Assembly (NCBI RefSeq): GCF_032854445.1
Contig: NC_088300.1
Location: 33,091,608-33,155,607 of the forward strand
Reading direction: 5' to 3'
Origin: Liolophura sinensis
Taxonomy: Eukaryota > Mollusca > Polyplacophora > Chitonida > Chitonidae
Length of the DNA stretch: 64,000 nt
A program made the position numbers and the translations under genes. Of this stretch, positions 4,367 through 35,400 are shown in pieces (the stretch's first letter is position 1; every line of letters begins with the position of its first letter). Below the pieces are notes generated by a model. The model was given only the letters and a program-made list of their open reading frames with translations, was not told the origin of the DNA and made no database searches.

Positions 4367-4369
4367 TGT

Positions 4370-5120: not shown

Positions 5121-5123
5121 TAT

Positions 5124-5380: not shown

Positions 5381-5869
5381 TTCCTGGCTAAGTATACACA
5401 AGTTTGTTTGGACAAAACCACATAGTGGCATTCAGTGGACCCATAGAAATGGAACAGTCCAAACAGAAGGGAGTCCCCAAAAGCTACTATAATAAAAAAA
5501 TAAAAACAATGGGAGAATTAGGGCACTTTGCCTGCTCATACTCACCACAGCTAATCAGTCCATGATCCTTGAGTCTCAAATTGTTGTCCTGATTCAGCTG
5601 GTTTGTCAGGTTACAGGTGACTGATGCAGTACACTGGTTTATTTTGGGCACTTCTGTTGCCTTCACTTATAAACTTAATTGACTAGCATGTGCAATTTAG
5701 CATTAGCTGCGACTTCCAGATGGTCTTGCACTCATGCCTCATGTTACGAGAATTGACTATGTCAATATATGTAAGACTTGGCTCAGGATTGGGTCATAAA
5801 TTTCGTACATTCAGGACTTGATTCAAGATCTAATTTTCGGCACCCCCCCTCCCCTCCCCTGCATATCAC

Positions 5870-6005
5870 TACCCTAATTCCTCAACCTTTTCAGGTATGA
5901 AAGAATAACTTTCAGTGCAATTTATGCACCTTTTTCATTTGATTTTAGAGACAAAACTACATTGCTTGGATTGGTCAATTTCAGCACTTCATAAAAAGTA
6001 TAATT
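5870..6005 (+). repeat. Dispersed repeat family D, copy 1
   Basis: The block AACTTTCAGTGCAATTTATG, then CACCTTTTTCATTTGAT, followed by a GAGACAAA-CTAC motif, is matched in reverse complement at 31930-32065. Similarity extends through a GG-TTGGTC-ATTT-AG segment. No terminal structure is visible. Confidence 0.6.
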
Positions 6006-6876
6006 TTAGCAGTCCACACGGAATAATGCCCTAAGAATATGCGGAAATAAACACTCTGCAGAATTACGCTAACTACAAACACTTTGCAGTTGCATGTAAA
6101 TACTGATTTGGAGAAAGAATGGGACAAGTCAAGATATTGGGTATAAAAGATCCCTTGTTTATTATGATATCTTATATACATCTGTACAAGAAAAGTCTCC
6201 CAGAGCCCAGTACCTATGATTGGTAAAGAAAAGTTAACCAGGTAAGGTGAAGTATACAGCCCACTAGAGCAGCCATAGTACAAATCCCAGTATTGCACAA
6301 AGCAGACTGGCATGTATAATCAACATAAAACATTCAAGGTACCGTAATAAAACAAAGATATGAACACATATGGCTCAGACTAGTTTCATCCAAAGTGTAA
6401 AATTTCGTAACATGGCCTAAGCACAAATTCATGTAAAACGGTGTTGTAATGATATACATGTAGGTCTATGAAACTTGATTGGTCTTTCAAATTTTTTGTA
6501 GTTTGCCAGTAATGGAGATTGCATAATAATACATGTTAGTTCCATGTCAACTGTATAAAACAATGTCAACAGCAATGCAACCCTATTGCACGAAAATCTG
6601 ATACAGAAAGAGAATGCGTGAAGAAATTTGGCATAATGAGGTACGCTAACAAATTTGCAAAAGCGCTGACAGGTACTGAATTCAAGATTTGTAGGTGAGA
6701 AAAAATGGTTTCTTAAAAACATGGCAACAGTTGTATTAAGACAGACCATTACATGTATGGTTAGCACTGGATACTTCCGACAGAATGGCACTTAAAGAAG
6801 TACTAGGAAAAAAAATCCAAGAGATAATAAACGACTCATAGGCTTTCAATTTCAAATTTACACTTTTCCTAACGTG

Positions 6877-6880
<4 letters not shown>

Positions 6881-6920
<40 letters not shown>
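6881..6920 (+). repeat. Poly(A) tract of 40 bases
   Basis: An uninterrupted run of 40 A. No clear SINE body adjoins it on either side. It accounts for the poly-Phe minus-strand open frames around it. Confidence 0.95.
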
Positions 6921-6922
<2 letters not shown>

Positions 6923-9900: not shown

Positions 9901-10914
9901 AGAAATCCTGTACAGCCAGCTGATAGGTACAAGTATGCTTGAAAGAAGTGATGTCAACAAGATTACCGAGGGTAAAACAAATGACAAGCAGGGGTTGAAA
10001 CAAAGTTTACCATTCATATTGGAAATTTCCGAAATATTGATGGGGTCTAAAAGTCAGTGTATCAAAACTAGTTGTGTAGTTGCTTGACAGGAGCATGCTC
10101 CTCAGCCATGAAGACGGGTCTACAGATGGAGAAATTTTCGAAAACAAAATTACATCACTTGCGACAGGTAGAACAAATTAATATTTTAACCTCTGAATCA
10201 CTGGAAAGTTCAAAAACACCCAAAATGTCAGAAATATATATTCAATGGTGAAAAACCAGATCATGCAACAAAGAATTGCAAATCAAATATGACATAGCAC
10301 CTATCAAACAACCACCATGTTGAAACACACCAAACAGATGAAAGGGGGAAAAAATTGGGGGTGTCGAGAAATATTAAGAAATGTGAACATTACATGATTT
10401 GTGAAATTCTATAAGGGAATGGAAAAGGTCTGTGTATGAAATAGTCTTTCAAGATAAAACGTGAATGGTTAATTCCCAGGTCCCATGCCCTAAAATACCA
10501 GCTATCATCTAAAATATCTATCAACTAGACATTAACAAAATAAAAGCCTTAAGACTCAACAAAACAATATTTGCGTGCTGTACACATAACAAAGTACATG
10601 AATATCCAAGCCAAAAAAAAAACAAAACAAAAAAAAAACCCCATTTAAATCATGACCAAACCAGCTTGTGCACGCTGAAATGGTACACTGTAAAAAGTGT
10701 CCAAATATATGTTCTAAAATGTCACAGATCAAATCTGTTGTTTTAACAGTGTAACTGTGCTGGCTGTCACTTATAACAGGCTAGCACGAATGTGCATACA
10801 CATGCCTGTGTATGTACATATATATATATATATATATATACATATATAGATATAGATATATAATCTCTGAGAAGCCATTAGAAAGGTGCATGATCAAGTC
10901 TTTCGTCCATTTTG
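6921..10914 (-). other. 3' flank, probably including the 3' UTR of the FoxN2/3 gene
   Basis: Nearly 4 kb downstream of the forkhead gene's stop codon holds no SINE I can recognise and no credible ORF. It has A/T homopolymers near 7420-7435 and 10611-10640 and a TA repeat at 10817-10860. The low repeat content compared with the introns fits a long 3' UTR. I cannot locate the polyadenylation site with confidence. Confidence 0.4.
10817..10860. repeat. TA-rich microsatellite
   Basis: An AT dinucleotide run followed by imperfect ATAGAT units, about 55 bp beyond the forkhead gene's stop codon, hence in its likely 3' UTR. Confidence 0.85.
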
Positions 10915-13900
10915 TCAGGAAGAGGCAGCGTCATCTTTATCCTGCTGAGGACTGGAATTGACCAGTGGGCTTATAGAACGTAATGGTAGAATGCTGGTTT
11001 TGATGCCAGCTAAGTTCAGCAGAGCATTAGCACCTTCCGCTATTTTCATGTCCTCATCCTCATCGTCACGTTTTGCTGCCTTGTTTTTTCGCGGGGACTT
11101 TTGAGCTTTATGTCCCTTTGTTGAAAAAGAGTCATCGTTGTCGTCACCATCGACTTCATCGTAATCACTTGCCCAGCCGTCGTAATCACTGTCTTCATCA
11201 ATGTCGTCATCCGAGCCGAAATCATACTCTTCCTCTGATGAATACGGTGACACTCGCCCGGAGCTGCTATCCGACGGGGAAGCTGTCACGCTGTAGGTGT
11301 GGTCCTCACTTGGGTTCAATGTGCAGATTATTGGGCCTAAGTTCTTCCTCTTTACATGATGACTTAACTGGGTCCTGGAACAACACCAAACATTATTATC
11401 ATTATTATTATTATTATTATATTATTGTATTGTACTCCTTCCATTTTCTATGCCATTCAGATGTCATTTCTCTTCATTTGTTGTCTGTTAAAATTTATTA
11501 CAACATTTTTTTTTTATTACTCAATAATAAAAATTCAATGAAAAAAGGCTATTTTATTCCTTCAAACTGCAAAGGTATTTGCAAGAAACAGTTGCAAGAA
11601 AATCAACAAATTAACAAATTATGGAGTAGTTAAAAAAGTGATAAATGACACCCACAAATCACAAACAAATTCTACAGTCAAATGCTTACATCTGCTTCCT
11701 TTTCATCCCTGTGCGCCACATTCCACCTCGACCTGAACAGACAAAATCACGTACCATAAGGAACAAAATAGGCGATACCTATTTATTACAATCTTATTGC
11801 AATATTTTCTGTACAGTAATAATGTGGACAGGATTTCTTATTTGTATGAATTGTCTTATTTTTTTTTTTTTTTTTTTTTTTTTTGATTGGTGTTTTATGC
11901 CGTACTCAAGAATATTTCACTTATACGACGGCGGCCAGCATTATGGTGGGTGGAAACCGGGCAGAGCCCGGGGGAAACCCACGACCATCCGCAGGTTGCT
12001 GACAGACCTTCTCACGTACGGCCGGAGAGGAAGCCAGCATGAGCTGGACTTGAACTCACAGCGACCGCATTGGTGAGAGACTCCTGGGTCATTACGCTGT
12101 GCTAGCGCTTTAACCGACTGAGCCACGGAGGCCCCAATTGTCTTATACCCATGTAATGAAAAGTTATACTTTAGCCTAATAGGTACAGCACAGAAAACAA
12201 ATAGATGAAAGCTTGTAATACAAACATACACAAAAAGTGGGTCTTACCTATTAGCTGATGTCGAGAGTTGGAAGAGTTCAGTCCCTTGAGAGACACCAAA
12301 GCATTGGCCACATCTATGTCACTATCTGTAAACAAAAACATACTCAGTATCATTATCACTTCATAACTTCAATTCATAACATGTACATCTGGCATAAAAA
12401 ATGAATGTTGCTAACACAGGCATGATTAAGTTTTATGAATGTGGAAGGCATTTAATGAAAAAAAACTGCCGTCGTATAAATGAAATATATCTGAGTACAT
12501 CGTAAAACACCAATCAAATAAATCATCGGGGAAGAAGGAAAAGTGTTACCAAGAAATGCTTAAAAAGTGACACTATTTCTTTACAAATAAGTAAAGTTAT
12601 ATACATTTGAAGCCACTTACCCAAACTTGACTGTGCTAACCTCTTACTAAGAAATGGGAAGAGATCTGGGAAATAAGGAAAAAAAAAATAAATAAAATAA
12701 TAATTATAATAAATACAAAAGATTATATCATGCTATGAGAAGAAATTATTACTGTAATTATACAAAGACCGGGATCAGCATTTTATATTATAAAATACGT
12801 ACCTATGGAAACAATGACGACAAAAATGTTGATTATTGTCATGTTATAAAGATATAGGTATTTTACATCAGAAATATTATATGTTTAGCTAGGAAAAGAC
12901 TGAATCCTTTTCCTTGTTTTAACATAACACATGACTCTTTATACTTACGAGGAGATATTTGGTTCACAGCATATCTGGGAGATAATGGAAGAGGTCTGGA
13001 GCTGAAAAAGCACAAGCAAACAACTTACATGTAAACCTCGCTAGGACAAATCATAAATCGTTTGTATGCAACTAGTGTCGTATAAATCATTTAATTACCT
13101 CACATAACCTCAGTAAAATGTGTAACTAGGATCAAGAAAAGACAGCTGTGTTTGTCATGCAGGAGATATCGAAGGTGAAATGTACATGTCCTGATTAAGA
13201 AACAGAAAGGTTTAACCTATGTATGGGTTATCGTGTCTATTATAGTCTATTCACATAAAAAACAAACACAAAAGTAATAAAGTTAACCTAACACAGTTCA
13301 CACATTTCCCTTGTTTCTAACCACTTGTTTCACTCCCATGGATTATCTCCCTTAGCCCCATCTCTTACAGATATTTAATATCTGATGATACCTGTTTTTA
13401 TGTCTCATAATAATGTACCGACTGAAGCCCATAAATCTTTATTCCTTCTTTATTCTTTACAGCACGAGCATTAATACGTTTCCCTAGCCACACAAACAGC
13501 GCAGGTGGAATATCTACTTGTGCATATTTCAGTATTTTTGGTATTTTATAATTATTACATAAGTCAGACATAAGTTTCAATAGAACTGCATCTGAGTTAT
13601 TAATTACCTATTAACACAGAGCTCAACATAATATAGCCGGACAGTTTTACTGCACAGTATTTCGCCATAGTTAACAAGTATTTTATCGTAGTTGAATATA
13701 CAAATATAGGGTCGTTCAAGGCATACAGGTTATAAAGACAAACATAACAGAGCTGTACATTTAGAATATAAACTAAATTTAGCCAAACGGTATTGTTCAA
13801 TGAAGTATGAAGTCCTGTTTCATATTTTTTGTGAACAGAGAGAATATTTGGGTAGCTAGGTGACATATAATTACACCACACATTAGGTCATCAAACAGCC

Positions 13901-16900
13901 TATCTTAGCTGCTGAGGTTTTTCTTCAAAATAATGAAGCTTACCAGAATATATTATGGCTCAACTGTTAATCTCACAATCTACATGTGCGTTGCATCCAG
14001 AGTTAACGTGTATTTTGGCCTCTATTCAATTCCTGAGCTGACAGATGAGGTGGTGCCTGATTAAAATGCCATTTGCATCTTTACGCAATCTCGCTTATTG
14101 ATTTCTCAGCGCTAATCTGTATCACCACAGTAGCGCTCAATTATAGTCAAGACAACGGCCAAACAAAAAGTAACGACTTGTCAGGCTATGAAAGGAATAA
14201 AATTGTCTCAACGCTTCAGCGCACAAGGTAAGGTCCTTTATAACACCTACTGAGAGAGACACTGTGGCCCAGTTGTCATGGTAACCACTGTCTATCAATA
14301 ATTTAGAGATGTAATCAGTTTGCTGATGGACTAAATGTCAAATAATAGAAATAGGCAAAAAAAAAGTTAAGGATTTCTAAGCTGCTGTTGATCACTGAGA
14401 AATCTCAAAATAGACAAAGCAAGCTTAAGATAAATTTTACAAATAATTATCTGCAGCCTATGACCACATGAGCATTCAAATCTTCCCTCTATTTGTACTC
14501 ACATGTATTTCTCCATTTCCATAATTTCAATATTACACAAAAAGGGCAGGTGTCAAGAAAATAGGATGGCAAATTAAAAATTAACAACAACTAATTGATA
14601 AATGTTGATTTCCTTGAAAATGATATCCTCTTGGGTAAACTTGCACAACAAATAAACATCATGGAGGTATGAGTACGAGTAGTAATGATGCGACAAGAAC
14701 GTTTGGTGGAAACTTACAAAGGAAGATTAGGATTCTGTGCCGCAGATTGGGGGCTGGCGAGCATCTGAAGCTGGTGGTAGGGGTGATAAGGGGTTTTCCT
14801 CAAGGCCTGCAGTAGGTTTGGTCGATAATCCGGGTCAATACACCACAGAGAGCCTTTGCCTATTGTCTGTAAAGAGAAGAGAAATGCTCATCTTCAGCAC
14901 ACAAGACACTAAAGATCTTACACCTTAGAATGTACATGTAACAGTGTGTTGGTAATCAAGCATGAAAATGTAGATAATGACCTGGAAAGGGGGGGGGAGT
15001 GATTTGGCAAAGTGAACTGCCAATTTTAATGAAATTTTGTGAAAACCTGCAAATCCTATTAACAGTAAGGGCATATATATGTACATTTATAATACTGATT
15101 TCTCCACTAGGAAAGACCAAAATTATTGTGTCCTTTAATAGACCAACATCTTAAATGACCAGTGCTCCAAGAGATCAATTACCGAGCAGCACACATCATA
15201 CATCAAGAATGAATTTTCACCTAGGCTACATATACATGCCCTCATATTTAGTAACCCATAGTACCAAAGAGGCCTGGAAAAATAACATGATTGCAGATTA
15301 CCGTTATACACTCCTAGTGGGTCAAGTACTATAGTCACTGTAGTATTTAACCGTGTCACGATATTTTTCTACATTTTTTCATGTAACACTGAGTGCCACG
15401 TGAGATGGGGGATTCTATTCACATATGATCTTTGGAAAACACTAATAGTGTGGTTGCATTAAACCACCACAGAAACAGTGGAATCTTAACCAGACAGTCA
15501 GCTTAATAAAGGAGAACTTTAATCCACAAGTAATCTAAAGCTACTTCTGTAAAACTTGTGCATGTACACATTGTATTCTGTTAATGTATCATGTAGATGT
15601 TCTGTGTATATACCACTTACCAGGCATTTACTCATTTACATGTATTTGATTAGTGTTTTAAGCCATTCAAGAAATTTTCGATGGCAACCAGTATTACAGT
15701 TTGGGGAAACCAGGCAGGATGAGGAACCCACAAACCTCCGCAGATTGCTGGCAAACCTTCCCATGAATGATGGAGAGGAAGCCAGCGTGAGAACCTGTGC
15801 TGTGCTAGCACATTAGCCACTTGGCCACGGAGGATTCCAGGTACTACAGGTATAACTTCTATCTCATTATATCAGTAAGTAGTCAGGGTACTGTTTGACA
15901 GACAGGGATAGACAAAGGTTTATTGTAATGCACAGTTATGAGAGACGCGAGACACACCTATAACACTTCTTTACTTGACAAAGGCTGTGAGAACTGCATG
16001 AACTTAATAGCAATCAACAGGGAATTCTGATACAAGCTTCCCATTTTCTTGATGAAATTCAATTATGGCGTTATTACACAGTTGAGGTATCGAGCATAAA
16101 TTGATCGCAAATTTGGGCTGTACCTAGATTAGCAGTGACCGGCTGCCCACCCCATCACATCTGTTGCCATAGTCCCCTCGTTGCACTGACTACAAGCCTG
16201 TCTAGGGCATAGCTGCTACCTATGTAAATGCCTTTAGTATCAGTCAGCCTTATACATGTACCGCTCTTCTGGGGACCTTGATCACATCTGGGCTTGATGT
16301 TACCATGGAAACCAGTAACTCTGAATGGCTGTTGGTGGTTTGCCAATTTGGTGAAAATGTTGGGAAATGATTGGAGATAAATCTGGAACGTTGTTCCCTT
16401 TCTATAGGTTGCAGTGCCTACATGTACATGTAAAATCTTCACTCCGTTTGTTAAAAGTGATCTGATCCGCTCTGTTCCAGAATAACATAACAGGGTACAC
16501 ACATGCACATGTATAGTATGTAAAGTATATATGTACCAAGTTGAACAGGTGGTCTGAGTGAACCTGACCGGCTGACACACAAAACTGTCAACTGAAATAT
16601 GAAACCCCCCATATTTTCCACATGCGTTTCCACCATTTATAGCATAATTTTAACTGGGCACACACCAACGATATATCACAGGGTTAGACATACAACAGTT
16701 TTTATTACCTATTTTAAAATAGCCCAGGATTTTAACAATGTCATGCGACAGCTGTGACAGAGACAGGCAAATTTAAGCTACAATTCTTCCACAATGAAAA
16801 CTGAGGACTTGGTTTCAGAATTTTTCAGAAGTGTTATATTGATATTGAACCATGAACCCAGTTGTGTTCAATTTCTGAATAAACTCAACTTCCTTTAATA

Positions 16901-19155
16901 AATGGAATGTAAAACAAAAAAACATAACCCCCCCCCCCCCCCAAAAAAAAAAACAAACAGATAAAACTGTACTGTAAAGCATGTACTGAACATCTAACCA
17001 TCCTTTATCACACTGTTCTAAATAAGAAACTGGTCAAATTCAATTGCACAAATATGCAAAGGTTGATGTATGTGCAGAATTGAGGACTAGATCAATTTGT
17101 ACAGGGAGGTGAAGCCAGTGTGGTCTAGCATGCTTTGTTGACTAGGGCCATGTATCCAGTAAATACAGCCACCAAATACATCCTTCGGGCCCCGCATCAG
17201 CCTTCCCGCTCTGCCTCCTCAGCCAGATGCTCACACGCAAAACAAAGACCATGTCGTTGCTATAACAACGATACACATTTGGGCTTTGATGAGGAGGGCG
17301 GTAATTTTTTTTCTTCTTTTCCTACCGGTACCCTCTACACAGGCGCTCTCTAATTGTGGGCTAGTTGTCCAAAATGCTTCAATGATTTCGTCAAAGTCCA
17401 CATCATTTAATGTCCTAGTTACAATAATCAAATCAACGAGGCATAGATGTTTTTTCCCTGCTCCCGGCTTCCTCTTACAACAGATAGTCACATGATTAGG
17501 GGAAATATATAGGTCCCATATCCCCCCAGTCAGGCCACACATCATCACAGTACTGTGAGCTTTGTTACCATGGCAACTCAATATGCTTTCATTAAAACCA
17601 TCTGTTAACAGTTCACCATCTAGGCATCAGAAATGCACAGTGTAATTTCACCATTTTTTTTCCAAAACATGCATTAGTATTGCATTATACAGAATTTCTA
17701 CAAGTACACATACAGTAGAAAATAACATGGCTTGCTAAGGTTTATTTTAGATGCAATTAAACTTTTATCAGAAACACATGGCAAGGGAAAATCCGCAATG
17801 TTTTGCATCAAATTGGGATGGTCGGAATGAGGCGAGATGTAATCTATAGTACGTAATTTACTGTCGAAGTTAAGCTCTGCAGTATAAATGCAATCAACTG
17901 AATCCCAATAACCAACTATTTTCGCTGTTGCCTTTTTGACATAAAATCACGACAAAGGATTTTGATAGCAACTTCACATCAACCATAAAGCTATACAAGG
18001 GAGTTACATATGGGCAATCGCAATACATATAATGTTCAGGTTTTCATATATCAAGCACCATCAGCCCAGATTGAGGATCAGGAGAGGAATGAACTGTTAG
18101 GGGACAAATCCAGGACTACTCACTTGCAGGTTGTCATGGAAACACACCATTGCTATACCCTGCTATCTACCCTTTATCTGTAGTTACAAGCTTTGTGCCA
18201 GTACAGATTGCAGCCTGTATATTAATTCTAGCTGCAGCTTTCAATTGGCTGTTTACAGCCTTCAATTTAAATCGATACAACGCTAGAATATCCCATCAAC
18301 AATATCAATTTCATACAGCAACAGGCAAGACTATACTTCCACATCTTCAATAAAGAATATAGCTACATGAGTGTATATAAATATAAGTACTTCCAGTGGT
18401 CTGCTTTATTGTGAAAACAAAATATCATCAAATATGGTGTTGACAACATTAAACTAAAGTGAGGCGAATATTGTCCTAAAAATATATATATAATAAATAA
18501 TATATACATATAATATATATAATAATACATACATATGCGTAATAAATTTACATACCTGACCCTTGTCTTTGTCAACTTTTTTGAAGCACTTGTTGAGCGA
18601 TAAGTTGTGCCGCACAGAATTTTTCCATCCTGTGGGTGCGTTCTGGAAGTAGGGGAAGTGGGTCAGTATCCAGTTGTAAATGTCTTTAACTGGCAGTCGT
18701 TTCTGAGGGGAATCTTCTACAGCCATGAAAATAAGGCAACTAAACGAATACGGGGGTTTGCTGTTGATGTGCTTCTGAGGATTATATGGTACATGGGAAG
18801 GATGACTCTGGGGAAGATTGTTTGGAAGCTTTCGAATGTCCCCATTTTCCTTCTGCGAATCTGCACTTTCCACCTCTCCAGGGTGTATGTTTTTCAATAA
18901 GTCACTGTCTTGTAACCATGCCAAACTTGTCAGCTCATCATCCTCTTCCATGTCCGCTTTTTCCAAGCGAAGTTCGGCAAAGCAGCTACTGCTTAACGGG
19001 TCCTTCATTTCGTCATCCGATTCACTCATACACTGCAAAGCTTTCGAAAGTGCACTGCCTGGGAAACTCTGACTAAGGCTGCTTACGAGTCTTTGTCGCA
19101 TTGAGGCATCACTTTCATCTTCGTTTTTGACGGACGCCATGGTTACCGAATTCAT
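10915..19155 (-). CDS. FOXN3: FoxN2/3 forkhead transcription factor, complete coding region
   Basis: Seven coding exons on the minus strand join in phase: 19155-18556, 14866-14718, 13001-12949, 12665-12621, 12325-12248, 11732-11690 and 11374-10915 (TGA). They give 475 residues; human FOXN3 is about 490. All junctions use GT/AG. An acidic N-terminus holds [14 protein letters not shown]. The forkhead domain spans about residues 133-225, with [28 protein letters not shown] and, across the first junction, [13 protein letters not shown]. Then follow the family's [20 protein letters not shown] and NPSEDHTYS segments, an acidic Ser-rich tract, a Lys-rich NLS-like stretch ([10 protein letters not shown]) and [18 protein letters not shown], matching the FOXN3 C-terminus. 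It should bind DNA in the nucleus, mostly as a repressor in known relatives (CHES1). MNSVTM at 19155 and MASVKN at 19140 are both possible starts; 5' UTR exons must lie upstream of the acceptor at 19165. Assignment to the FoxN2/3 group is firm; the vertebrate split makes the choice between symbols arbitrary. Confidence 0.93.
11391..11425. repeat. ATT trinucleotide microsatellite
   Basis: A run of ATT repeats with one ATC interruption, 15 bases or so upstream of the last coding exon of the forkhead gene, within the intron near the acceptor. Confidence 0.85.
11860..12135 (-). mobile_element. tRNA-headed SINE, full length with 11-bp target-site duplication
   Basis: A minus-strand element. Its head (12135 downward) begins GGGGCCTCCGTGGCTCAGTC with an A-box-like TGGCTCAG, then B box GAGTTCAAGTCC. 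The body contains GGTTTCCACCCACCATAATG and ends GTACGGCATAAAACACCAATC plus a long A tail (T run on the plus strand). AATTGTCTTAT flanks it at 11849-11859 and 12136-12146. It sits in an intron of the forkhead gene in sense orientation. The long intact duplication points to a fairly recent insertion. Confidence 0.93.
12466..12524 (+). repeat. SINE tail fragment
   Basis: The 3' end of the common SINE only (GCCGTCGTATAAATGAAATA through AAACACCAATCAAATAAAT). It is 5'-truncated and lies in plus orientation, antisense to the forkhead gene intron. Confidence 0.8.
15645..15836 (-). repeat. tRNA-headed SINE, diverged
   Basis: Minus-strand copy in the large forkhead intron. It keeps GATTAGTGTTTTAAGCC, CCGCAGATTGCTGGCAAACC, GAGAGGAAGCCAGC and GCCACTTGGCCACGGAGG at the head end. 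The segment carrying the B box is mostly deleted. Confidence 0.75.
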
Positions 19156-21846
19156 CAAGTCCGCTCTGCAACAATAAAAAGAAGAAAAAAAAGAATTAGA
19201 GTCAGGTGTTGTTCGAGATTGAATGACAATATAGGGGAATATGATTAGAAGGCTAAGACTCCATGCAGCTGCCTTTACCACTAAACTAGGTCGAGGATCT
19301 CCTCAAAATCACTCAAGTGAAACTGTACCTTCTCTATACATACACACTTACCATAACACAAAATGAATATAAAAAAAAAACCACAAGCCTTAACCATGTC
19401 TGGCGTAAGCATGGTTCCTATGGCAACAACAGGACCCAAACTTTATGCATTTAACATTGAGATGACCAAGTGTGCCTGATTCAAGTGGTGTCTGCCCTTG
19501 CACTGAAGACAGTAGATGTGTTCTATGTACATTTCTAATTTAATCTTCGAAGTTTGGGAGCCTTGTGGGTACATGTAAACTCTCCAATGTTTGCATGTAT
19601 TTTGCAAAACGTTTGCTTTTCAACATGCACCAGTGTGTTGGGCAAATGTACGTGTTCACTGAACTGAGACCAAGAAATGATGCTGAACAAACCCAAAACA
19701 ACTGATAAAGAGTTTCTTTTTGGTTTGTGACGAGTTATGAATGACTGATTATGGCTGAAAGTCACCTCGGCGATATTAGAGCTATATCGCTGCGACACAA
19801 GTTAGGAGAGTATGGATGTCTCCTTGCTTAATAAAACATCTTTATCAACAGGGATAATTAATCTTTCATGTTGATAATCTAGCTTTCTTCTACATAAAAA
19901 AAAAGATGTTTCCAGAGCTACAGCAAAAAGAATAAAAAAAATGAGAATCATTAACTGAAGGAAATATGAAGAAACCAGAACCTCGACGTTGATTTAATTA
20001 TTTAATGCGCAAAACCTACCTTAAATCCTAAAAAGAACTGAACTGTCTTAAAACTTGACATTGTGGCAAAATGCCTGTCTGATCAAAGCAACTCCATACT
20101 GTAAATGTAGTTTGGTGTGAATCATGTCTCTACAACTGATACTGGTAACACCCTTCTGTCTGCCTCCAGGATGATTCTCAAATAAACTACACTTGCGATC
20201 AATTTTTATGAGCGGCATATTTTAAGTAGGCGACACAACACCACTCTATTTCATTATCCCTTTGAATTACAGCCCAGAGTTGGATCTATTCATCTGAGCC
20301 AACAGCCAATAAAAACAAGGCGCATCCCCCCTATTTGTTACGAAGTTTCCATGGAAACCATATAAATACCCAGGTTAACGCCGTAAGAGGCTCTAGATCT
20401 GATGCTGAGGACAGAATACAAATATGAGAAATTCTGAAGGATTAGAATTGAGATCTGAGCTAGGAAGTCTGACGAGTACATAGACAGGTACGGGGCTGTT
20501 CCGATACAGGTGAAGTTTCCCAGAGCACAGCTGGGTTGTGGACACAACACCTCGCACTACCCCAATCAATGAGAGTTAAAGCCTTAACATCAATATTGAC
20601 ATAGTCAATATAGCCAAAGCCTAGGAAGGAGGGGAAATTATACAATAATTCTACAAACAATATCATTACAATGACGTGCATGTAAAATAAACCTGTATAA
20701 AATATAAAATAAACATTTATTTCTGATAAGTGCTTGAAGTAAGCTGGGATGATGGGATGGTGTGACGGAATGAGGAAGATTAACTGTTAAATCAATACCA
20801 CCTCCAGCCAGCACTTACAACTCTTATCCCACTTTGTTGGGCAAAAATGAAAGGCAATTAGAGGCTTGTGTAGAGGTGACCGAATGGGTGTTGGCGATCA
20901 CTTATAGACTACCTGACCTGGTAATTGTGGTCCGGATACTGGCACAGTACAGAGGAAGTGATTACAGGTGGTAATGACCTGACACCACTGGATCAGTTCA
21001 CCTGAGGAGGCCGGACACACCAGCAGAATTTACAATCCCTGCCACTTCCGTAGGACATGTCATTTATTGCATAACCATATCATATCAAACAGCACGAGTG
21101 TCAACAAACAGAATGGCTGTTCGCAAATCAAACCCATCCCTGCTAAACCACATAAATTACATCCTCTAACCATACCACTAAATGGTAAATTCAACAACAA
21201 TAAAGTTCACATGTACCTACATTTGTGCCATGCAAGTAATATTCTGACTGAAAAACTTGGACATCCAAAGCATTAAAGCTGATAAAGATGATATCATTTT
21301 TTAAATACATTCAGAAATGTGTTTTTACTGAAATACAATTTTCTATTTCTAATATAATTTGTCAGTTACATATGTGAAAGAAGCGTAGCATGTTACTGTG
21401 GGGTGTAAGTATATTCGTTAGCACTTTCATTAAAGCTTAAACAATGGGAAATAATTTTTAAGTCGGTGCTGGACATAATGACTCTAACTCTAAGCTAATC
21501 ATAGTATTTAAAAAAGTTACAATGTTATTTACATGTCAGATTTATTCCCTTTTGTCCCTCCCTCAGTATTTTTCATTTCCAGGCTTGGAGCTACATGTAC
21601 ATGTATGTCTTGATAAAAGGACATCTTAAGTATTAACACCCCAAACCCGCCCCTCCATTATTATTTTGCTGAGCAAACTCTTTTGCAACATGAGGACAGT
21701 GTACCTCATTCCCATGGAGGGGTGTTTTGAGCAGCCTGTCACAGTCAATAACTCTGACCTATTTATATGTCTGTTGCCATAGCATTGGTCATTAGAAAGG
21801 GGAGAGTACAGTATGGATGTGAAAACATGTGCCTGTCATACAGTAC

Positions 21847-21895
21847 ACACACACACATATATATATATATATACATACATATATATACTGTTTCA
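21847..21895. repeat. CA/TA microsatellite
   Basis: ACACACACAC passing into ATATAT and CATACATATATATA. A second ATATATGTATATATAC-type stretch lies about 70 bp further on. Confidence 0.8.
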
Positions 21896-24800
21896 CTGTG
21901 GCATGGCTGGGACGGCTGGATCTATATGTAGACAAGTGGGACATCTGCTTGTGGCTGATATAAATACATATATGTATATATACCTACATATAGAGTAATA
22001 AAGACTGGCCAGGCTGGCTCACTTCACCAACATGTGTAACCTGCAGTGATCAGCTGATCCCTAAATAGGACACCTCGGTAGGTTACCATGGAAACCACCA
22101 ATACTATCCCCCATCATTATGTGTATGCGGGGCCAGTACACTGTGAAATCACTTCTTAGTGGTGACAATCCAGAGGACCTCTTTACTGGGCCTGTCAGGA
22201 CTTCTCATAAGTGGCAGAAACAATTCAGATTCTACTGAAGATGTTACATCCAGCACATCTCACTGTCGATGATTTATCCATCAGTATACATGTAACATCA
22301 CGTTATCACTGTTTTCTACTTTCATTTTGTAAACATACCATCTTTTGGAAAAGTTTATACTATTAAACAAAAAATATCTCCACAAATTTGTTAAACCTTA
22401 CTTGCGCTAAACTTATATCAAAGGGTCCAACTTCATTTTTAAAACTTCTATAACTTCAGAAGTTCAATAAATCAACCACGTCACAAAACTGATTAACACA
22501 AATATTTAGCACATGCTATTCATATTCATGCAAAACGTAAACAATTCTGATTGTCAAATGTCCATGCAATACATGTAACAGATAAGCCATAAATGTATGA
22601 GTGCAGTTTTATCCAATTGCATTAAAACCCCAAAATTACTAATACTGTCATGTTCCAAATAATAAAAGTGGTAAATATTTAATATACTGACATGTAATGT
22701 GGTATTATTTTTAAAATCTCTGGTAATGATAATATCCCTTTTAATATTTTGTTAGCATGTTTATGTTTATTTAAGTATACTGCAAAACTGCATACACTGA
22801 TCCACATTAAATCTGCAATATCCAGTAAATTTCCAGTACTAGTATATCTGACAGCTCCACATAAGGCATTTGAGGGTCAACTATGTTGCAATCATGCAAG
22901 TCTAACCCTACTTTTTGTGCACAAAAGTTTCCCTGGTAATGATGTAATTATATGTTTACCTACATTTATGTACCTCTCTCCACTTACTCTATGGCTTCGC
23001 AACAACCCAGGGCATGTGTCACACATCTACCTGTTTATAGGATAATAAAAACTTCAGCAGATGCCAGGAGTACCAGCCCTCCTCTTCCCGCCCCCATTGT
23101 CATCCCTTGGGTGCTGCCATGGTTGGTCAACATGATAGCCACTGTAGTGGACACGGGTCATTTCCCTTTGCCTGTGTAAATTACAGGCATGATGGGGGTG
23201 GTATATCCTATAGTCCCTCACTGTCTCAGACCACTTGTAAAGGTCAGCCCTATCTGGTTACCCCCCTGGGGCAGTGCTAATGTAACAAAGTGAGGTCTTG
23301 CTGATGTAACAAAAACTTCACCCCTCCAGTCACAGATGTCTGTTACCCAGGGACCAGGTACTAAATGCTCTTATGAAGCCTACCAGTATATGCCTATATA
23401 ATACTGTTCTATTACTCCTACCAAACCTTAGTTAAAGGCAGCCCAGCCAAATGTGCTGCAGATAAAGTGGAGATAATACAGAGATATGTAAGTTGTCATG
23501 CTGACTGACCCCTGAACATGTGACATGGTTTAGTTGAGGAGGACCTTACTGTGTTGACACATGCCCACATTAGGATACATGTGCATGTCCCCCTTAGCTG
23601 TGCGATTCTGTCCCCTGCTCTCTGATAGACACTATGTTAGGGTAGGTTCTACTTACGAATTAGGGGTACATTCCTGGAGCGATGTTCAAAAAGGAGCCAG
23701 AGCAGCTTTATCAGCAGGGTTGTATGGAAGACAAGTGAAGCTGAGCAAACAAACAAAATAACAGTATGGCGGCCTGGAAGAACTGCGTCCTGTAAAAAGG
23801 CCCCCGTTGGCCAAATATTCCAAGGTGGGGGTAGGTTGGTTAGGAGGGGAAGACTGGGCCTCTGTAAGCATCCCTGAGATTGGAGGGTTTAAACAGGAAG
23901 ACTCTGACTGGCTAAAAGCTGCCTGACTCACTACCCCATGTGATCTGCCCCTAGCCTTATGCATATACACATTGTGCCGTCTTTTCCTGCTTCATATCGC
24001 CATGGTTACTAAGCTATGTAGTCATGGTAACCAAAATCAAGTGTCAATGTATTCAGTGGGAGCTGTCTGCCTGCGTGTTATGTGTACCGGTTTCAGTTGG
24101 CTATACTTGCACTGCTTTAGGCTATATCCATGTTAAAGGAAAAAGTAAGCCATTGAAGCAGATCGTGTATGGCGGTTTTATGCTCCGCTTGCTCTAATTT
24201 ACAGTGGTCAGGATACAGTCCCGTCACAGTGTGAACTATGTCTGACAACAGATAAATTGGATAATCACTCGCCTGACGTTGGTGTGACCAGCATTGATCG
24301 GAGCTCTTCATGAATTCAGAACCCTGATAAAAACTGGCCCCGCTTAACAATAGCGAACATGGCTCCCCATCAGTATTGATGGCCAGTTGAAGCAAATACT
24401 GCCTGAATCAACACGTGGCAGAACAGACGGAGGCAGATTAAACAGACGCAGCTAAAATATTTACCCCAGCAGCTAAAGTTTCCCCGCCTCATCCAGACAC
24501 AATCTTAGATCAGCTCCTGTTCACCTGAAACTCACCTGGTCAATCAGCATTCATTAGCACCTGTTGACAAGTTGACATATGACAGCTGGGACCAGGTCAT
24601 AAGAGCCTGGTATTCACCATAAAAATATCCACTCCACTAATGGCTGTTTTTTTCCTCTCACCCTTCTTACATGTCTTACACCTATGGTCTTATTAAATCT
24701 GTACACTTAATATTTAACGTGATTACTGTGTTGGAAATCAGGATTTTAATGTCATCTGTTTAGCTTATTATTAGGAAAGACAAAAAAGAAAAAAAAAATC

Positions 24801-26820
24801 TGTATGACAGGGCATCATCTGAAGCTAGCACAAATGGAGCTAAATCAGCATACTGCTTAATCTTTCTGTCTATATACATGTAGCACATAACTTTAACTTT
24901 TGACAGCACTTGCACCAGTCTTTGGTCTAATGGACACACAGTGTATTAATGACATTTGTGTGTCCAAACAGATACACAGTGCCTGGTTACAGTTGTATTG
25001 AACATGTTAGGGGGAAGTGAAGGACTAGAGTGTATAACCATAGCTTCACAGAGGCAGAAATCAATACAACAACACATGTGCTGAAAACAGTTCCATCAGT
25101 TTATCTGTTGTCAAGGGAATCCGAGGACAGCTTCATATCGCCAAGGCAACCCATTACAACGACAACAGCTCTCCATGTAGGGTTCAATATGGAACTGCAT
25201 GAATAAGACACAAGCCTAGCAATGTGATAGGTTAGTCATACAGCACATCATAATAGCCACAGCTACAACAATTCTATCTGGGGACACATGGATGGAACAA
25301 ACTGTAAAGCTTACAAATATGTACATTTTTTTTAAAAACTTGTTTATTCTTTGTTTCAATTTCAAATACTTTCATGGTGCAAAGATTTCAAGTTAGTACA
25401 ATGTAGCTTTCCAATAATTTCAACTCTTTACACAATGTTAAGAAATAAAATCAGAAATACACCAAAGATATAAACATCTTCAGATACAATCTGCTTCATA
25501 GAAATACAAAGGTATAAACATTTTCAGACACCATTTGCAACACAGAAATATGAATGTATAAACATCTTCACACACTGTTTGCAACAGAAATACAAAGGTA
25601 TAAACATCAGATATAATTTGAAATATGAACTTTGTTAAATTGCCGAATACATGCACATTGGTAAACACCACACAGAACTTACTTTAGTAGATTTATGTAA
25701 AGTTGATGAAGCATCATGGTGGTTGTCAAAGAGCATAGTCAGTTTCTGTTCACAATAGACAAAAGAAGCTGGGGAGTTGAATAACTGGTGCTCTCTCATG
25801 CCATGAAAGACACAGCCCTACCCATCAGTAGCTGCATCTTCACTATCTGTTTCAGTAAATGTTGCGGCCCTTTGCCATGGTAGCAGGCAATGTGGAGGGT
25901 TAGTTGCTATGACAACTGGCAAACAGACATTACCCTGGACAACAAGCATCCAAAGCGGTAGTAGCGGATTATCTCAGGCATATCTCAATCAGACAAGCTC
26001 CTGTACCTCGAGGCCACTGACATGCATGCCCCCAAAACATAATTCAATAAAGGCCTCAATCTGTTTAGATGAGACGACAAATCCCCAATCAGCTATAGCT
26101 GATTACATGGCTGTGGTGACATGTACATGGGAAAGACTTCCTTCCACACCTGCTTGCTTAATGCTTCCTGTACAATGTATGTGCATGGGTAATCACAACA
26201 TCATCATCAATAAATCACAGATCAGATTTAAAAACCGATCAAAACTGCTCAGCATACATGTACACATAAATTCTTCTCACTATTAGCCCTCAGAACAAAT
26301 CTCCTGATTTTGATCGATCTCTGTTTATCTTAGTCTTGAAACTCCAATATCAGTTCATCTAATTACCACCCAAGTAAACGAATAATCATGCTTATGGGAA
26401 GGGTTTGCAAAGTATTGCATCTGTAGGGTCCTGGCCCTTGGGCTTGCACAAATACTTGGGTAACAGAATAACGGGGATACTGTTCAATTCTATAATTAAT
26501 AAATGCATTGGAAAATACATGCGCAAGTTTCTGTAATGCTACATGTACATGAAATGTCCTGAGTTGAGTTTTCAGCACCCTTCAGCACCCTACAGCTCTG
26601 CATCATAAAAGTCTAACTTCCAAATGTATTTACATGGGATCTTTCAGGAAATGTTCAAAAATGCTTTAATATTACATGTACTAAACTCAACATAAAACCT
26701 TGAAGCACAACAAAGCAAGTGTGGAATAATTCAGATATGACAGACAGATAATACTGATCCCCTTACGTCCCCTCTCATGCCAGAAATAATGTAGTTTACC
26801 AATGTGTTTTTTTTAACTTG

Positions 26821-27091
26821 GGGGCCTCCGTGGCTCAGTTGGTTAGCGCGCTAGCGCAGCATAATGACATAGGAGTCTCTCATCAATGCGGTCGCTGTGA
26901 GTTCAAGTCCAGCTCATGCTGGCTTCTTCTCAGGCCGTACCTGGGAAGGTCTGCCAGCAACCTGCTGATGGTCGTGGGTTTCCCCCGGGCTCTACCCGGT
27001 TTCCACCCACTATAATGCTGGCCGCCATCATATAAGTGAAATATTCTTGAGTACGGCATAAAACACCAATCAAATAAATAAATAAAATTTG
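26821..27091 (+). mobile_element. tRNA-headed SINE, full length with 8-bp target-site duplication
   Basis: The clearest plus-strand copy, starting GGGGCCTCCGTGGCTCAGTT. The A box lies in TGGCTCAGTTGGTTAG (26831-26846) and the B box GTTCAAGTCC at 26901-26910, followed by the conserved body and a CAAATAAATAAATAAAA tail. TTAACTTG flanks it (26813-26820 and 27092-27099). The head is tRNA-derived but lacks a convincing cloverleaf, so it is not a functional tRNA gene. Confidence 0.93.
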
Positions 27092-30000
27092 TTAACTTGG
27101 AGGATATCTATGATTCCTTATTCAACACTACCAATAAGCTAAGTGATACGAAAACAAATGTTTCTTGGTTTTGTTTTCTTTAGAAACAGCTTGTGAAGTT
27201 ATACGACAGATTCTTAAACACTCTTGGCTTCTCTCGACATAACATTTCACATATACAGCGCCAGTATAACAAAACAGCCACCTGCTCTAAGTACACATAT
27301 TTCTAAATGATTTCCTCCTGGAATCCATACATAACATTCATCCTCATCACAAATCAATCAACTTCTCTGCCACTAGCTTTCAGCTTGGACAACAGACAGA
27401 TGAAAACATTTGGCCAGACAGTTCATGTATATTTGTCTAGCTAAGACTGTTTAAATTTAAGAAGTGGTATGTGTGTGTGTGTTTGCCGACTGAATTTCTT
27501 AAGAGTCCTATACATGTAATGTGTCTGAAGTGGCTGTAAGCCATACACTTCACAGTTCAGGCATATCCTATCAAAGGCAGCCCAGAAGTGTCCTGCTATT
27601 GACTCAACATGCCATCTGCTGTCTTTCACTGCATTCTATTACAGGTCAGCATGGTAACTAATGCTTCAAGCCGTTACTAAGCAACAGTGAGCAAGCTGCT
27701 GCACAGGCTGGTACAGAGCTTACAAGCCTTACACAAAAGTTGACTACTGAGGGCAGAGAGGGGAGCTAGGAAAAAATTCCATTACATACAGGCTGAGTAA
27801 ACAACCACCGCTCAAGTCCATACATAGCCATCATATGTCACAAACAAAACGCAAATTTTGACTATGAAATGCTAAAATATCAAAAAGAAATGAAGCGGTT
27901 TCCTTTCATTTTTCACATTCAACGTTTAAACTTCATCTTCACAGAATTTTGTGTTCACAGCAACAAAAGGGTTAAATGTTCTCAAATTTTGTGCAGATGG
28001 AGGGGTAATTAAATATATATTCAGTTATACCAAATTATAAAAAAGTAAAGCACTTATGAAAATGTTTTGGTAACATTTAAAGTTAAAAAAAATATGATAA
28101 ACTCAGATAACATTCAGATCTCCCTGATCAGGGTAATGAACAACCACATGGTAGACTAAGCACTCTCCCACAGGCCTCTCATAGATCAATCTCCCCTCCC
28201 CCCCCCCCTCCACACCCAACCCCTCTAACTCTCCGTCATCTTTCACTTACTTAAAGCCCTCCCATCAATTACATTTCCACAAGACCCCAATGAAAAAAGG
28301 CAGGGAAATCAACGCTCTATTTTTTTTATATTAGGTAACAGTTGTAATATTCCTAGGCCAGGATACAACCCGACTGCTGCACTCATTGACAAAATTCACC
28401 CACTAATCTTGTGTTACTAGGCAACCACAGACAGCCAGCCAGCACTTCTTTTTCCCCTAAGAGTATTTTCTCGCCCATGTGGTTGGGCCTTAATTCTGCA
28501 CTCAGGCCACTAGCCAGGCTTCACATATCCACCAGTGTAACCGAACAATTCTCTCACTTCCCCCTCCATCTTTGCTAAGCTTGCAATTTTCAAGATGGAA
28601 TCGGAAGAAAATTCTAGGGCTGTTTGTAAATAAACACCAAGTGAACTGCATGTACTTTGGGGAATATGAATATGTTCAGAACTGACCATCCTCCCTAGCT
28701 CACATCCAGATGATGGCCTAAGTCTACATACAACATCCATCAGGTAGCCATGGAAACCACAACCACTGAGATGGATAGCTCCATCAAGCCAAAATCCTAC
28801 ACAATACAAAATTTTGCAATTTTGCAGCATGTTGCCATGGAGGCAGTAAAACTGAACAAAACAAGCTTGTTGTGGAAGTGCTCACAATGTAGGCCTTTCC
28901 CCTCATCACTCGCAACCTGCTTGCTTCATACTTCGTTTATGTGACAGTTGTTAACTGTCATGTTCAATATGTTTACAACTCCTGACACATGTATATCAAA
29001 CTATACACTTCAATTAAATGCATACTGGGTGTAAAATACCTTAACACTGCAACACTTGCAATATAGTCAATTCTGTAAGATGGATCGGAAGCTACAGACC
29101 ACGTGATCTCCTTTATAACAAATGGCGTGGGTGAAGAAAACGGTCGTCTTTTGCATAGGAAAATGCCTATATCTGAATTGCTGTCAGTGATCTTTTATCC
29201 GTTGGATTTGTATAATTTTCAGCTTTCCAGATAGTCTTAGTATTCTTCTGTGCTTCTGTGACGTTATTTTGTACAACTGGGCCTTATTGGTCGCTAGCAA
29301 AGTGGCAAAATGTGACCTTTTCCCAAATGCTTTCACCAACATCTTGATGGTATTATGCAGCTCTTTCCCTCATGGGATCTCAACTATGAAAAGATCAGTT
29401 TAATTATAACTTGTTACATGTGACATTCTGCATATCTACATGTACTTTCTTGGATGTTTTTTTTTTTTGAAAAGTGAACGGTAAAGAATATCTACCTTTG
29501 CCTTGGTGGGCAGTGGTCTGGGGGTAAGAATAGCTGTCTCCTAGTGCCTGCCATTAGTCCATAAGGGTTAACAGAGTCCAGCTTCACCTCTGGGGATAAG
29601 CAGGAGTTAGTCATGATGGGAGGGTAGTAGCGGAATGTTCACCCAGGCTGCTATTGTCTCTTATATACCTGTACTACACCTGTGGCAATTAGGGCGGGTC
29701 TAACAGGGGACAGGCACACAAGGGGGTCTACCTGCGTAACCTATAAATAGGTGTATATTCTGGTAAATAAAACTACTGGCTTCACTCAGCAGGACAGTCA
29801 GTGAGATAATGCCCCAGGGGGTCAGGTTTAATTGACCCCCCCCCTCTCCTCACACCCCTGAATTAAAGCCAGACACATAGACAGCCACTGGTGGCTAATT
29901 GTTTTACCTGGCTGACAGAAGCCAATGCTAAGTGATACCCTGTCTAGGTCTAAAGGTTCACTTTAGTGCTCTCAGTTATGTTGACATCGTCACTTGCTGT

Positions 30001-30819
30001 TTATTTTAAGGATGGTAACACATTTTGCCTGGTAGGTTTCACAGCATGAGCTAAACTGTATACTTAGAAACATTTGTCACCAACACATTTTGTCTCCCAT
30101 ACAGGCTGTGCCCCAGGGCGAACATGTCATTGTATATGTGTATCCATAGCAACAGGTCTCTGTTAAAGCCACAATGGAGAAAAGCAGATGTGTCTGTGAG
30201 TTCCTTCAGCAGGTGGGTCTGTCAACTTGAGAACAATAACTCCTCAATCTTTAAACTCTGGTCGAAGTCCCTTCCTGATCCCAGCACCCACAAAGGGCCA
30301 CGCATACAACAGTTTAGAGACAGGGCTGGCACCCTCACTTCAGCCTCACAGAATACCCAGTAGTCACCTTATCAGGAGCAAACAGTGTCTACTCAAATCT
30401 TAGCTTAAAATTAAATCAGACCATGAACTTTGTTCGAACACGGTTACAAATGTGTTATTACAATTTATGTCACCACAGTTCATATCCAAGCAGCTGCCCT
30501 TGCGGGCAATCAACAGAACGATTGGAGGAAGACGTTTATGGTCAATAACATCAGTTTGGTTTAAAGGCAAAAGACAGCTGGCTGTAACGAAAGTCAAAAG
30601 ATTAAACACTTTCATGTTTATTTTCTTGTCAAATCTTTTCATGGAAGACCTACTTGGTAAGGACTCAAGACTGGTCGAATACATACATTTTTCATACATG
30701 TAGTTTTAAAGTATTTATTAAAGGTTGGCATTTCAAGCAATGTTAAAAATTTCAAACAACCATTAATGCAGTTATGTAGCACATAAATCTTGCTGATGAA
30801 CCCCTCTGTTTTGTCTCCA

Positions 30820-32410: not shown

Positions 32411-35400
32411 TATAAAATATCTTCCTCTTCCATTCTGTGAGACTTACTCATCCATTTAAGTACATCATGCATCTTTATTTATTTTACTGTTTAACAGGGC
32501 AATTAATGCCTTTTCTTTCGTAAAACATCACACTGCCAGCCAAGCAAATTGTACAACATCAGGGTAATAATAAACTGGCTATTTCTAGGTAAAATCAGTG
32601 TAAATGTATGGAAATATTTAATGCTTTATAAATTTGACTGTACCATTTTTTCATAATATTGATGGAGAGAGGAATCCAATATTTGTCCAACCACAGAGTT
32701 CTTCAGATTTATGATTCTGTGAGTGTTAGCGCACCCCTTGGCCCCATACCACACCATGCATTCCTAGAACAACCAGTCTTACCCCTCCCCCATTATCTGC
32801 TATAACATTTACCACCTAACACATGACCTCCTGATTAATATATAATTAGAACCCCCACTCCACCCCACTGCTAAATGGCTTGTGTCTACATCACTCAGAC
32901 AGGAAACTCTCAATCAGTCTCTTGCTAACACACTCCATTGTACTATAATTTACTAAAGATGCCCATGTTAGGAAAGCAAAACCCACAAGAACAAAAAAGT
33001 CCTAAAAACCAACCAACCAAGAATTACACACTTTTGATAATGGTCTAATCTGTTCAGATAACAGTTATGATAACAGCTACATGTGCACCTGACTTATCAG
33101 CTTCCAGTGTTTTCTTACTGTACAATGCAACAATTCCGTGTATCTTACACTATTTTTTAACCTTCTACTTTCTCTTACTGTAATTCGATAAATTATCAAT
33201 TTCAATGTAATGTTTTCACACCTGATGCCTTTCTTTTTTCAGCTACTCTGACAAAATCTTGTTTTTAGATGTGACAAGCAATTCCAAGTTGCTATGTCGA
33301 TCTGCCTGTTAGTAAAATTTTTGACATTCAACCTTTTACAATATGCCATTCACTTTACAAGTCGTCTTAAAGCTATATGACATGAATTTTTTGTAGGCTG
33401 TCCCAGCCAGATGGGTTCTGCACTTATTGTATGTCATGAAGATGGCCATTTAACCCACCTTTAACCCACCCTCTGTAGGTATATTCTAATACCATTAACA
33501 GTGGAGAGATTGGAAAGGTAATAGAGAAAACATTGTGTTATTTCAAAGTCAGGCTAAATGTATGCAATCAAAGCAACTTTAATTGCATTATCCAATTACT
33601 AATATTAGACATGTACTTTGCCCAACAATTTGACTAAACTTCATAAATGTCTTGGTATACTCTCAAATCAAAATCCCTGGATATCTAATTCAAATTTTTT
33701 CATTATGTGTACAAGTTCATGGAAAGTAACAGAAACAATCACCTCTCTTCTTTTGCTAAACAATAATGTGGTTTATTAGAATGACAAATGACAAAGTATT
33801 AAAATGCGTAATCGCCGTGTTATTAATATGACATGACGCAAACAGTAAAACAATGTATGCTAACACTGTTCAAACACTACTAAGCAGTCTTCCTCTGCTA
33901 TGTTTAGAAAACCTGTCCACTTAATTCATGAACCTATTCTAACTTTCACCTGAAACTGACCTCTACCACCAGAAATCAGTAGATGTCATAATACAACGGT
34001 GTACTAAATGGCTCCACCGTAGCCGAGGTCACAGACGGACGCTATTATTGGTGATAATGGACACCACTTGAGACCAACAATTGGACATCCCTTTCTGTAT
34101 GATCTGGCTCTGACCAATGAAGCTCTTGGTCTTGTTTCCCCACAAGAGATTTGGAATCCAGCCAATTTGGTCACAGGTCAATACCTATTAATCCATTACC
34201 CAATAGCTGGCCGAGTGACCAGCAAATGGTCATCTCAGCAATGAGTCTCTGAGTGACCCTGTCTCTGAGAGAATCGCTCCATGCCACTAAGGACAATGAT
34301 AAATATGCCGCAAGTTGCTAGTAGCAACAAAACACTTGTGTATATGCCACACAATGGGCTTCCACCTATTTTTATGCCGTCTGTTCTTTGTGGTGACGCT
34401 GGAAACACCATAACAGCCTGGTATCTTGACATCATGGTTGTCAGAGTGAAAAGTAGTGAGGATGTGATGTAGAAATGACTTCTGACCTGAGAAACCATCA
34501 GCCTAAAGACCATAAATCAATTATTTATGGGGCTCATATTCTATTCTGTATTATCAAGCAAATGTCTCTAGAATCTTAAGGATATCACAGACCGCCAGTC
34601 TTGGAGAACACGGAGCCTTTCTAAGCCGATTCTGAGTTGTCTGGCATGTCATTTCTTGTGAAATGCTATAGAAATTTAGTAATGCAGGAATAAAAGATTT
34701 TTAAATTCTTTCAACACCGGAAGAATGACAAAAACCCAACAACAGAAATCAACCCTTGTATGAATTAGTGCGACTTGGTAACAAAACAGGGTGCTATAGG
34801 TATTCTTCCTGTGTGGATTTTGTCTGTCTTTGGACAGAATGAAGCTTTTTTTTCTCTTCTCATCTCAGATTTTATTCAACGTGTTTGACTTGGGTACAAT
34901 GCGATGGCGGTGGTGAAATTTTAAGAATTATTTGTCCAAGGCTGTATCCTAGATAACAATGACTGACAAATATGTTAACCTCTCCGTCACTCTCCACCCA
35001 CCAGAGAAATAAAAGGAAAGAACACTAAACCACTTGTATATATGCAGATATAGTGATACATTGATATATATATATATTTTAAAATGCATGCCTTTCTTTG
35101 ATCACATTTCAAAGCAAGCTCAACCGCACATACTGAGAAATCGACAGCTAACTTTTAGTTATCAACTTTTAGCCCGTCAGGCATGAGTTTCTTTTATAAT
35201 CACGGAACACAGCTGTTTTCCATTGATGTCTTAGGAACCCTCTTGTACCATTTAGCTAAATCCGCCTGAGGTATGAGGAACGTGATATTATGTTTCTACT
35301 TTCCATAACATGGCACACCCCCTTAAGAATTCTAGATTAAAAGTGGATTACTGCTTCCATCCCTCTTCTGAAATATACAAGTTTATATTATCTGTTGTTT

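Follow-up and report, generated by a model that had tools for sequence, protein, structure and literature searches.

A dense array of X-boxes of the RFX dimer type surrounding the 5' half of a FoxN2/3 gene in the chiton Liolophura sinensis

We present the analysis of a 64,000-nucleotide stretch of the genome of the chiton Liolophura sinensis (positions 33091608 to 33155607 of contig NC_088300.1, here C6, in a 609-Mb assembly), referred to below as the window. In this window, X-boxes, the inverted-repeat sites of RFX transcription factors, accumulate around the 5' half of a forkhead gene of the FoxN2/3 type. A matrix scan of the whole window found 15 strong X-boxes between positions 14200 and 30200 and only one, at 34314, in the other 48 kb (Table 1). 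We interpret these 16 kb as a cis-regulatory region in which a homotypic array of RFX dimer sites would control FoxN2/3; judged from the sequence, we assign this interpretation a probability of roughly 0.6. That the sites cluster around the FoxN2/3 gene had been claimed in an initial annotation of this DNA; the counts bear it out and place the cluster at the 5' half of the gene.

RFX proteins are capable of dimerisation, and their RFX domain binds imperfect inverted repeats (PMC5838959, PMC5245798). The matrix consisted of a symmetric half-site derived from the X-box consensus, with spacers of 1–3 nt, and sites with a score of at least 13 were called strong. The 15 strong sites of the array follow the pattern GTTRCC N1-3 GGYAAC of an imperfect inverted repeat; the spacer is 2 nt long in 13 of them and 1 nt long in the other two. 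With a threshold of 11, the scan gave 20 sites inside the interval and 13 outside; with a threshold of 9, these numbers were 32 and 39. The excess at high scores is lost at low scores, which indicates an excess of good sites that fades for poor ones. In 200 first-order Markov sequences generated from the region, sites with a score of at least 13 numbered 1.1 on average and never more than 6. The four X-box sequences quoted in the initial annotation are all present where it had placed them, and its tally of fourteen strong and about six weaker sites is close to the 15 and 5 obtained with the matrix at the thresholds of 13 and 11. Its exact set of fourteen could not be matched, as only some members had been named; the site at 28831, for example, scores 11.7. 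Positions 12804, 40155 and 40283, which it had listed as isolated weak matches, have the look of half-sites and score below 9.

A second scan covered all 16,384 palindromes of 14 bp. Matches with up to 3 mismatches inside and outside 14200–30200 were counted and set against those in 15 copies of the window simulated with a third-order Markov model. GTTGCCATGGCAAC, which is the textbook site of RFX dimers, had 17 matches inside the interval and none outside, where 0.8 and 2.5 were expected (log10 p -14.1). For this interval it ranks third of 16,384, below TATATAT and ATATATA words only, which are driven by microsatellites and are abundant outside the interval, too. The 17 palindrome matches and the 15 matrix sites have 12 members in common, their union being 20, and the symmetrised column counts of the 17 matches read GTTGCCA. 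By both scans the sites are matches to the RFX dimer consensus, as had been proposed. Among 1848 plain gapped words, GTT N8 AAC came out on top with a p-value of 2e-4, which is lost after correction for that many tests.

Several observations limit the contrast or weigh against the interpretation as a control array. When the best cluster of 16 kb was sought throughout the window, AT words filled the top 25 ranks and the X-box was absent there; it is likewise not in the top 25 of the 15-mer palindromes with a 1-nt centre. Of the Drosophila consensuses taken from PMC2375033, the restricted form (GYTRYY N1-3 RRHRAC) has 16 occurrences, of which 9 fall inside the array and 7 in the rest of the window, and the degenerate form has 81, with 31 of them inside, where a share of one quarter is expected from length. 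The restricted form fits 9 of the 15 strong sites and does not fit the other 6. According to the same paper, X-boxes alone are a poor predictor of RFX dependence, the degenerate consensus being equally common in Drosophila negative-control genes (PMC2375033). Moreover, the sites are spread, unlike those of a packed typical enhancer, and one such locus studied in full does not fix the number of genes with arrays of this kind. Because of the weaker contrast with the published consensuses, we lowered our confidence in RFX control of FoxN2/3 slightly, from 0.62 to 0.60. What sets the array apart is primarily its near-perfect dimers, most of which have AT at the centre, and less its matches to a loose consensus.

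The same observations bear on the question of whether the motif was a post hoc choice or its excess a product of chance. Both motif and interval were picked after the sequence had been read, AT microsatellites dominate the best-cluster scan, and the contrast is modest with the Drosophila consensuses. On the other hand, the X-box was known as a motif independently of this sequence, only two of all palindromes rank above it, and it is more than ten times as dense here as in the control segments of this genome described next. Chance was rejected as an explanation on the basis of the own-genome control and the palindrome rank, and we regard it, together with post hoc choice, as extremely improbable.

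The own-genome control comprised 200 kb, taken as 20 segments of 10 kb each with preset coordinates on contigs C1 and C6. These segments contain 15 sites with a score of at least 13, no more than 2 in any one segment, and 10 matches to GTTGCCATGGCAAC with up to 3 mismatches. Per 16 kb, this corresponds to 1.2 matrix sites and 0.8 palindrome matches, compared to 15 and 17 in the array, which is an excess of 12 to 21 times. If sites are assumed to be evenly spread, the Poisson probabilities are about 4e-12 (matrix) and 3e-17 (up to 3 mismatches); the conditional binomial p-values are 6e-10 and 2.5e-13. Three of the 15 control sites (two at L011, one at L019) sit within a dispersed repeat that is described below. 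The initial annotation had pointed out that the same density in other DNA would speak against its proposal; such a density was not seen in these 200 kb. With respect to both the local and the genomic background, the sites are as dense as is expected of a homotypic binding-site cluster, and less clearly so with the published consensuses.

In the whole genome, the exact form GTTRCCATGGYAAC occurs 454 times and the reversed pattern 5 times; X-boxes are therefore in strong excess across this genome generally. This suggests a further reading, compatible with RFX control of FoxN2/3, according to which RFX-bound arrays might be common around many regulatory genes of this species and FoxN2/3 might be nothing special. 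The genome-wide excess argues for it, whereas none of the preset control segments approaches the density of the array. Among the matches listed, which cover the first part of C1, one other dense group of exact sites was inspected, at 13.73 Mb of C1, and this is coding sequence in tandem gene copies rather than a non-coding array. From these sequence comparisons we consider such a general occurrence possible, at a tentative level. In the tandem copies of a gene from L025:1 to L026:10000, each of four has an exact X-box in an open frame (VNGYHGN); judged by eye, the encoded protein has the look of a secreted factor's propeptide.

Repeats are another potential source of the sites. A family of short interspersed nuclear elements (SINEs) occupies 18 merged places in the window, two of which lie inside the array, which covers a quarter of the window; this depletion is not significant (P 0.14). 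The earlier statement that the sites are not SINE-embedded holds for the strong sites, none of which lies in the 7 of 18 SINE intervals checked, both array ones included. It does not hold for a weak match at 15675, which is located in an old SINE (15645–15791). With the strong sites outside the SINE intervals checked, a SINE origin was rejected.

Elsewhere in the genome we observed a dispersed, partly tandem repeat, the units of which are about 120–190 bp long and contain X-box-like palindromes; L003/L004 share it with L001 and L011. This repeat may seed RFX sites across the genome. For 17 sites (16 of the array and 34314), flanks of 200 bp per side with the box masked gave no match elsewhere in the window, and flanks of 300 bp per side gave no match to the repeat copies, to each other, or to L001–L024 at E 1e-4. 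A profile of the repeat had its sole match in the window at 14266–14288 (23 bp, E 0.019), which is the box itself. Neither flank search nor profile detected homology to a repeat unit over about 120–190 bp around the array boxes. A young repeat origin was rejected, the flanks being devoid of repeat homology. Except for the weak site in the SINE, tandem and dispersed repeats thus do not account for the sites, as is characteristic of a homotypic cluster, and the array is explained by neither composition nor the repeats found.

An alignment of 12 array sites showed that most of the information lies within the 14-mer; the two positions that follow are weakly biased towards CA, and the flank columns contribute little. 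The extended motif ATGG[ACT]AACCA is found seven times on the plus strand of the array, never on its minus strand and nowhere else in the window, one of the seven being the SINE match. This strand bias may be due to chance, to an asymmetry of the bound complex, or to a trace of very old copies. The latter would agree with a scenario in which the sites are decayed remnants of the dispersed X-box repeat that earlier insertions brought together without selection for binding. A repeat of this kind does occur in the genome (L001, L003/L004, L011 and a fragment at L019), and several of its units also have CA after the box. However, neutral decay is not expected to spare 14 bp and yet erase the adjoining DNA, the masked flanks match neither the repeat copies nor each other, and the profile finds nothing beyond a single box, with flank columns that carry little information. 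We therefore consider this scenario unlikely.

The gene at the array was located by means of tblastn, with a human FOXN3 sequence as the query, and of Pfam. The first coding exon found contains a Forkhead domain (Pfam E 3.8e-30) and matches FOXN3 at 90% over 68 amino acids. Among 46 matched PDB sequences, human FOXN3 (6nce) is the best with an E-value of 2e-40, followed by FOXN1 with 4.9e-25; within this set, the forkhead domain is closest to FOXN2/FOXN3. Two further exons are listed in Table 1; the lower end of the wing exon is the end of the open frame and not a mapped splice site. Five of the 15 strong sites are located in FoxN2/3 introns (14272 and those at 16299–18130), and the other ten precede the first coding exon found, the last of them at 30140. 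Besides two introns of this FoxN3-like gene, the array takes in the 11 kb before its first coding exon.

Six-frame Pfam scans (E ≤0.01) of 801–10801, 19301–29301 and 30201–54601 yielded SRP54 domains only. In consequence, FoxN2/3 is the nearest identified gene and the only identified gene under the array. The SRP54-like gene, the next one identified by Pfam upstream of FoxN2/3, occupies about 50.2 to 43.9 kb of the minus strand, with its 3' end toward the array and about 14 kb past it. The sites might nevertheless act on SRP54, on an unannotated non-coding RNA, or on local chromatin structure instead of FoxN2/3. The region upstream of the first coding exon, where two thirds of the strong sites are found, could conceal a non-coding gene or further 5' exons. 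Against this stand the orientation of SRP54, whose 3' end and not its 5' end faces the array, and the strong sites within the FoxN2/3 introns; we judge a target other than FoxN2/3 to be improbable.

The arrangement of the sites gives a hint as to how the array could work. The median gap between sites is 1.1 kb, and the gap lengths vary somewhat less than in random placements (coefficient of variation 0.56 compared to 0.91, p 0.019); no periodicity was found among the 15 sites (p 0.78). The layout is that of a spread array, not of one compact enhancer. A co-enrichment of the forkhead site RTAAACA was considered and dropped: 20 occurrences inside the array compare with a simulated mean of 12.9 and a maximum of 26, and they are partly due to a tandem repeat. 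GACGC is not enriched in the array. Runs of C6/G6 are enriched in 14200–30200, with 28 inside and 6 outside (overlapping counts).

In the preferred interpretation, namely RFX control of FoxN2/3, dimer-binding RFX proteins (RFX1/2/3-like or RFX4/6-like) would occupy about 15 strong and 5 moderate sites, and RFX bound to the intronic and upstream sites would set the transcription of FoxN2/3. Binding of these sites, RFX as the binder and FoxN2/3 as the target are each likely. Because the sites are so far apart, we think of many small elements rather than one enhancer; most likely, these would be joined to the promoter through RFX dimerisation, i.e. by looping. With regard to the sign of the effect, we lean slightly towards activation in RFX-expressing cells over repression.

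X-boxes are frequent in conserved elements of vertebrates. Ciliary X-boxes usually occur singly or in small numbers close to the promoter; here, about 15 are distributed over 16 kb. The array sites resemble the X-boxes of the RFX1-3 type in being GTTRCC-like inverted repeats with a spacer of 1–3 nt, and the majority fit the restricted Drosophila form, as reported above. The C. elegans locus of fkh-8, also a forkhead gene with several putative RFX sites, contains three putative X-boxes, and there RFX is genetically upstream: DAF-19A/B repress fkh-8 in non-ciliated neurons, directly or indirectly, whereas its expression in ciliated neurons is independent of DAF-19 (PMC10393296). This case makes repression as well precedented as activation. 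It differs from ours in the small number of putative sites and in an effect that is possibly indirect, and fkh-8 need not be an orthologue of FoxN2/3.

In Xenopus multiciliated cells, Rfx2 marks loop anchors and was proposed to serve as an enhancer-promoter scaffold (PMC5245798). This model would suit the spread sites of our array, as in both cases distant RFX sites are proposed to join by dimerisation; in Xenopus, however, these are enhancer-promoter pairs of cilia genes, whereas here we find a homotypic array at one transcription-factor gene. The bilaterian Rfx1/3 promoter likewise concerns an RFX-tied developmental regulator and is under strong non-coding constraint; it is a conserved promoter found by alignment (PMC10735318), and the main text of that paper contains no occurrence of foxn or x-box. 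As to the function of the gene, foxN2/3 of the annelid Owenia is expressed in endoderm during gastrulation (PMC9539403), and arthropod FoxN genes were described as ubiquitous, with a suggested role in the cell cycle (PMC9269926); for this reason, a role in cilia only should not be assumed. The initial annotation had envisaged an old RFX-responsive block and linked RFX to ciliary and neural programmes; a great age of the array and a ciliary or neural role may or may not apply. RFX and forkhead factors do act jointly in cilia programmes (PMC10393296, PMC5245798). The available part of a FOXN3 review (PMC6555274) contained nothing on RFX control, and no report linking an X-box cluster to FoxN2/3 was found in the literature, which was mostly open-access and screened mainly at the level of listings.

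Table 1. X-boxes, FoxN2/3 exons and related features. Positions refer to the window except where a locus is given.
Feature	Position	Strand	Remarks
X-box GTTGTCATGGTAAC	14272..14285	.	score 16.3
X-box GTTACCATGGAAAC	16299..16312	.	score 15.7
X-box GTTGCTATAACAAC	17256..17269	.	score 14.8
X-box GTTACCATGGCAAC	17564..17577	.	score 18.4, 1 mismatch to GTTGCCATGGCAAC
X-box GTTGTCATGGAAAC	18130..18143	.	score 15.5
X-box GTTCCTATGGCAAC	19414..19427	.	score 13.8
X-box GTTTCCAGAGCTAC	19908..19921	.	score 13.6
X-box GTTTCCATGGAAAC, perfect palindrome	20345..20358	.	score 15.0
X-box GTTACCATGGAAAC	22082..22095	.	score 15.7
X-box GTAGTCATGGTAAC	24018..24031	.	score 13.9
Local X-box group	25871..25943	.	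strong GTTGCTATGACAAC at 25903 (16.5); weaker at 25871 (10.0) and 25929 (11.4)
X-box GTTACTAAGCAAC, 1-nt spacer	27673..27685	.	score 15.0
X-box GTTACTAGGCAAC, 1-nt spacer	28413..28425	.	score 16.7
X-box GTAGCCATGGAAAC	28744..28757	.	score 15.3
Weaker X-box GTTGCCATGGAGGC	28831..28844	.	score 11.7
X-box GTATCCATAGCAAC, upstream edge of array	30140..30153	.	score 13.6
Isolated X-box GTTGCTAGTAGCAAC, 3-nt spacer, beyond array	34314..34328	.	score 16.9
ATGG[ACT]AACCA	14278, 15681, 16305, 20351, 22088, 24024, 28750	+	one is the SINE match
FoxN2/3 first coding exon found	18556..19155	-	candidate start 19155 (or 19140), first part of forkhead, GT donor after 18556
FoxN2/3 forkhead wing exon	14717..14866	-	tblastn 81% over 31 amino acids; TTTACAG acceptor
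FoxN2/3 C-terminal coding exon	10915..11421	-	weak tblastn match (E 6e-6), LLNLAGI end; bounds are open reading frame limits
X-box repeat copies	L001:996-1586, 2893-2999; L003:1426-1972; L011:4736-5177; L019:6959-7005		L019 is a fragment

Beyond the SRP54-like gene, the window contains three related frames of rhodopsin-type receptors at 54655–61984, among which the minus-strand frame at 57658–58548 scores lowest and is matched over a shorter length. They are followed at 62131–62778 by a tandem array of 24 copies of 27 bp, in which one minus-strand frame is open over much of the length and translates as a repeated DSLYQCFTD-like unit. Scans with Rfam (gathering threshold) and for tRNAs found nothing.

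The control of FoxN2/3 itself seems to be little known. An array of high-quality dimer sites predicts that RFX sets FoxN2/3 directly, and it would provide a naturally occurring example of a homotypic array whose sites are spaced by about 1 kb. A more far-reaching proposal, which we put forward with considerable doubt, is that FoxN2/3 might be an ancient direct RFX target of bilaterians, its retained 5' array being a multi-anchor, RFX-scaffolded control region that corresponds to the X-boxes of nematode fkh-8; RFX and forkhead genes would then be connected in a single old circuit.

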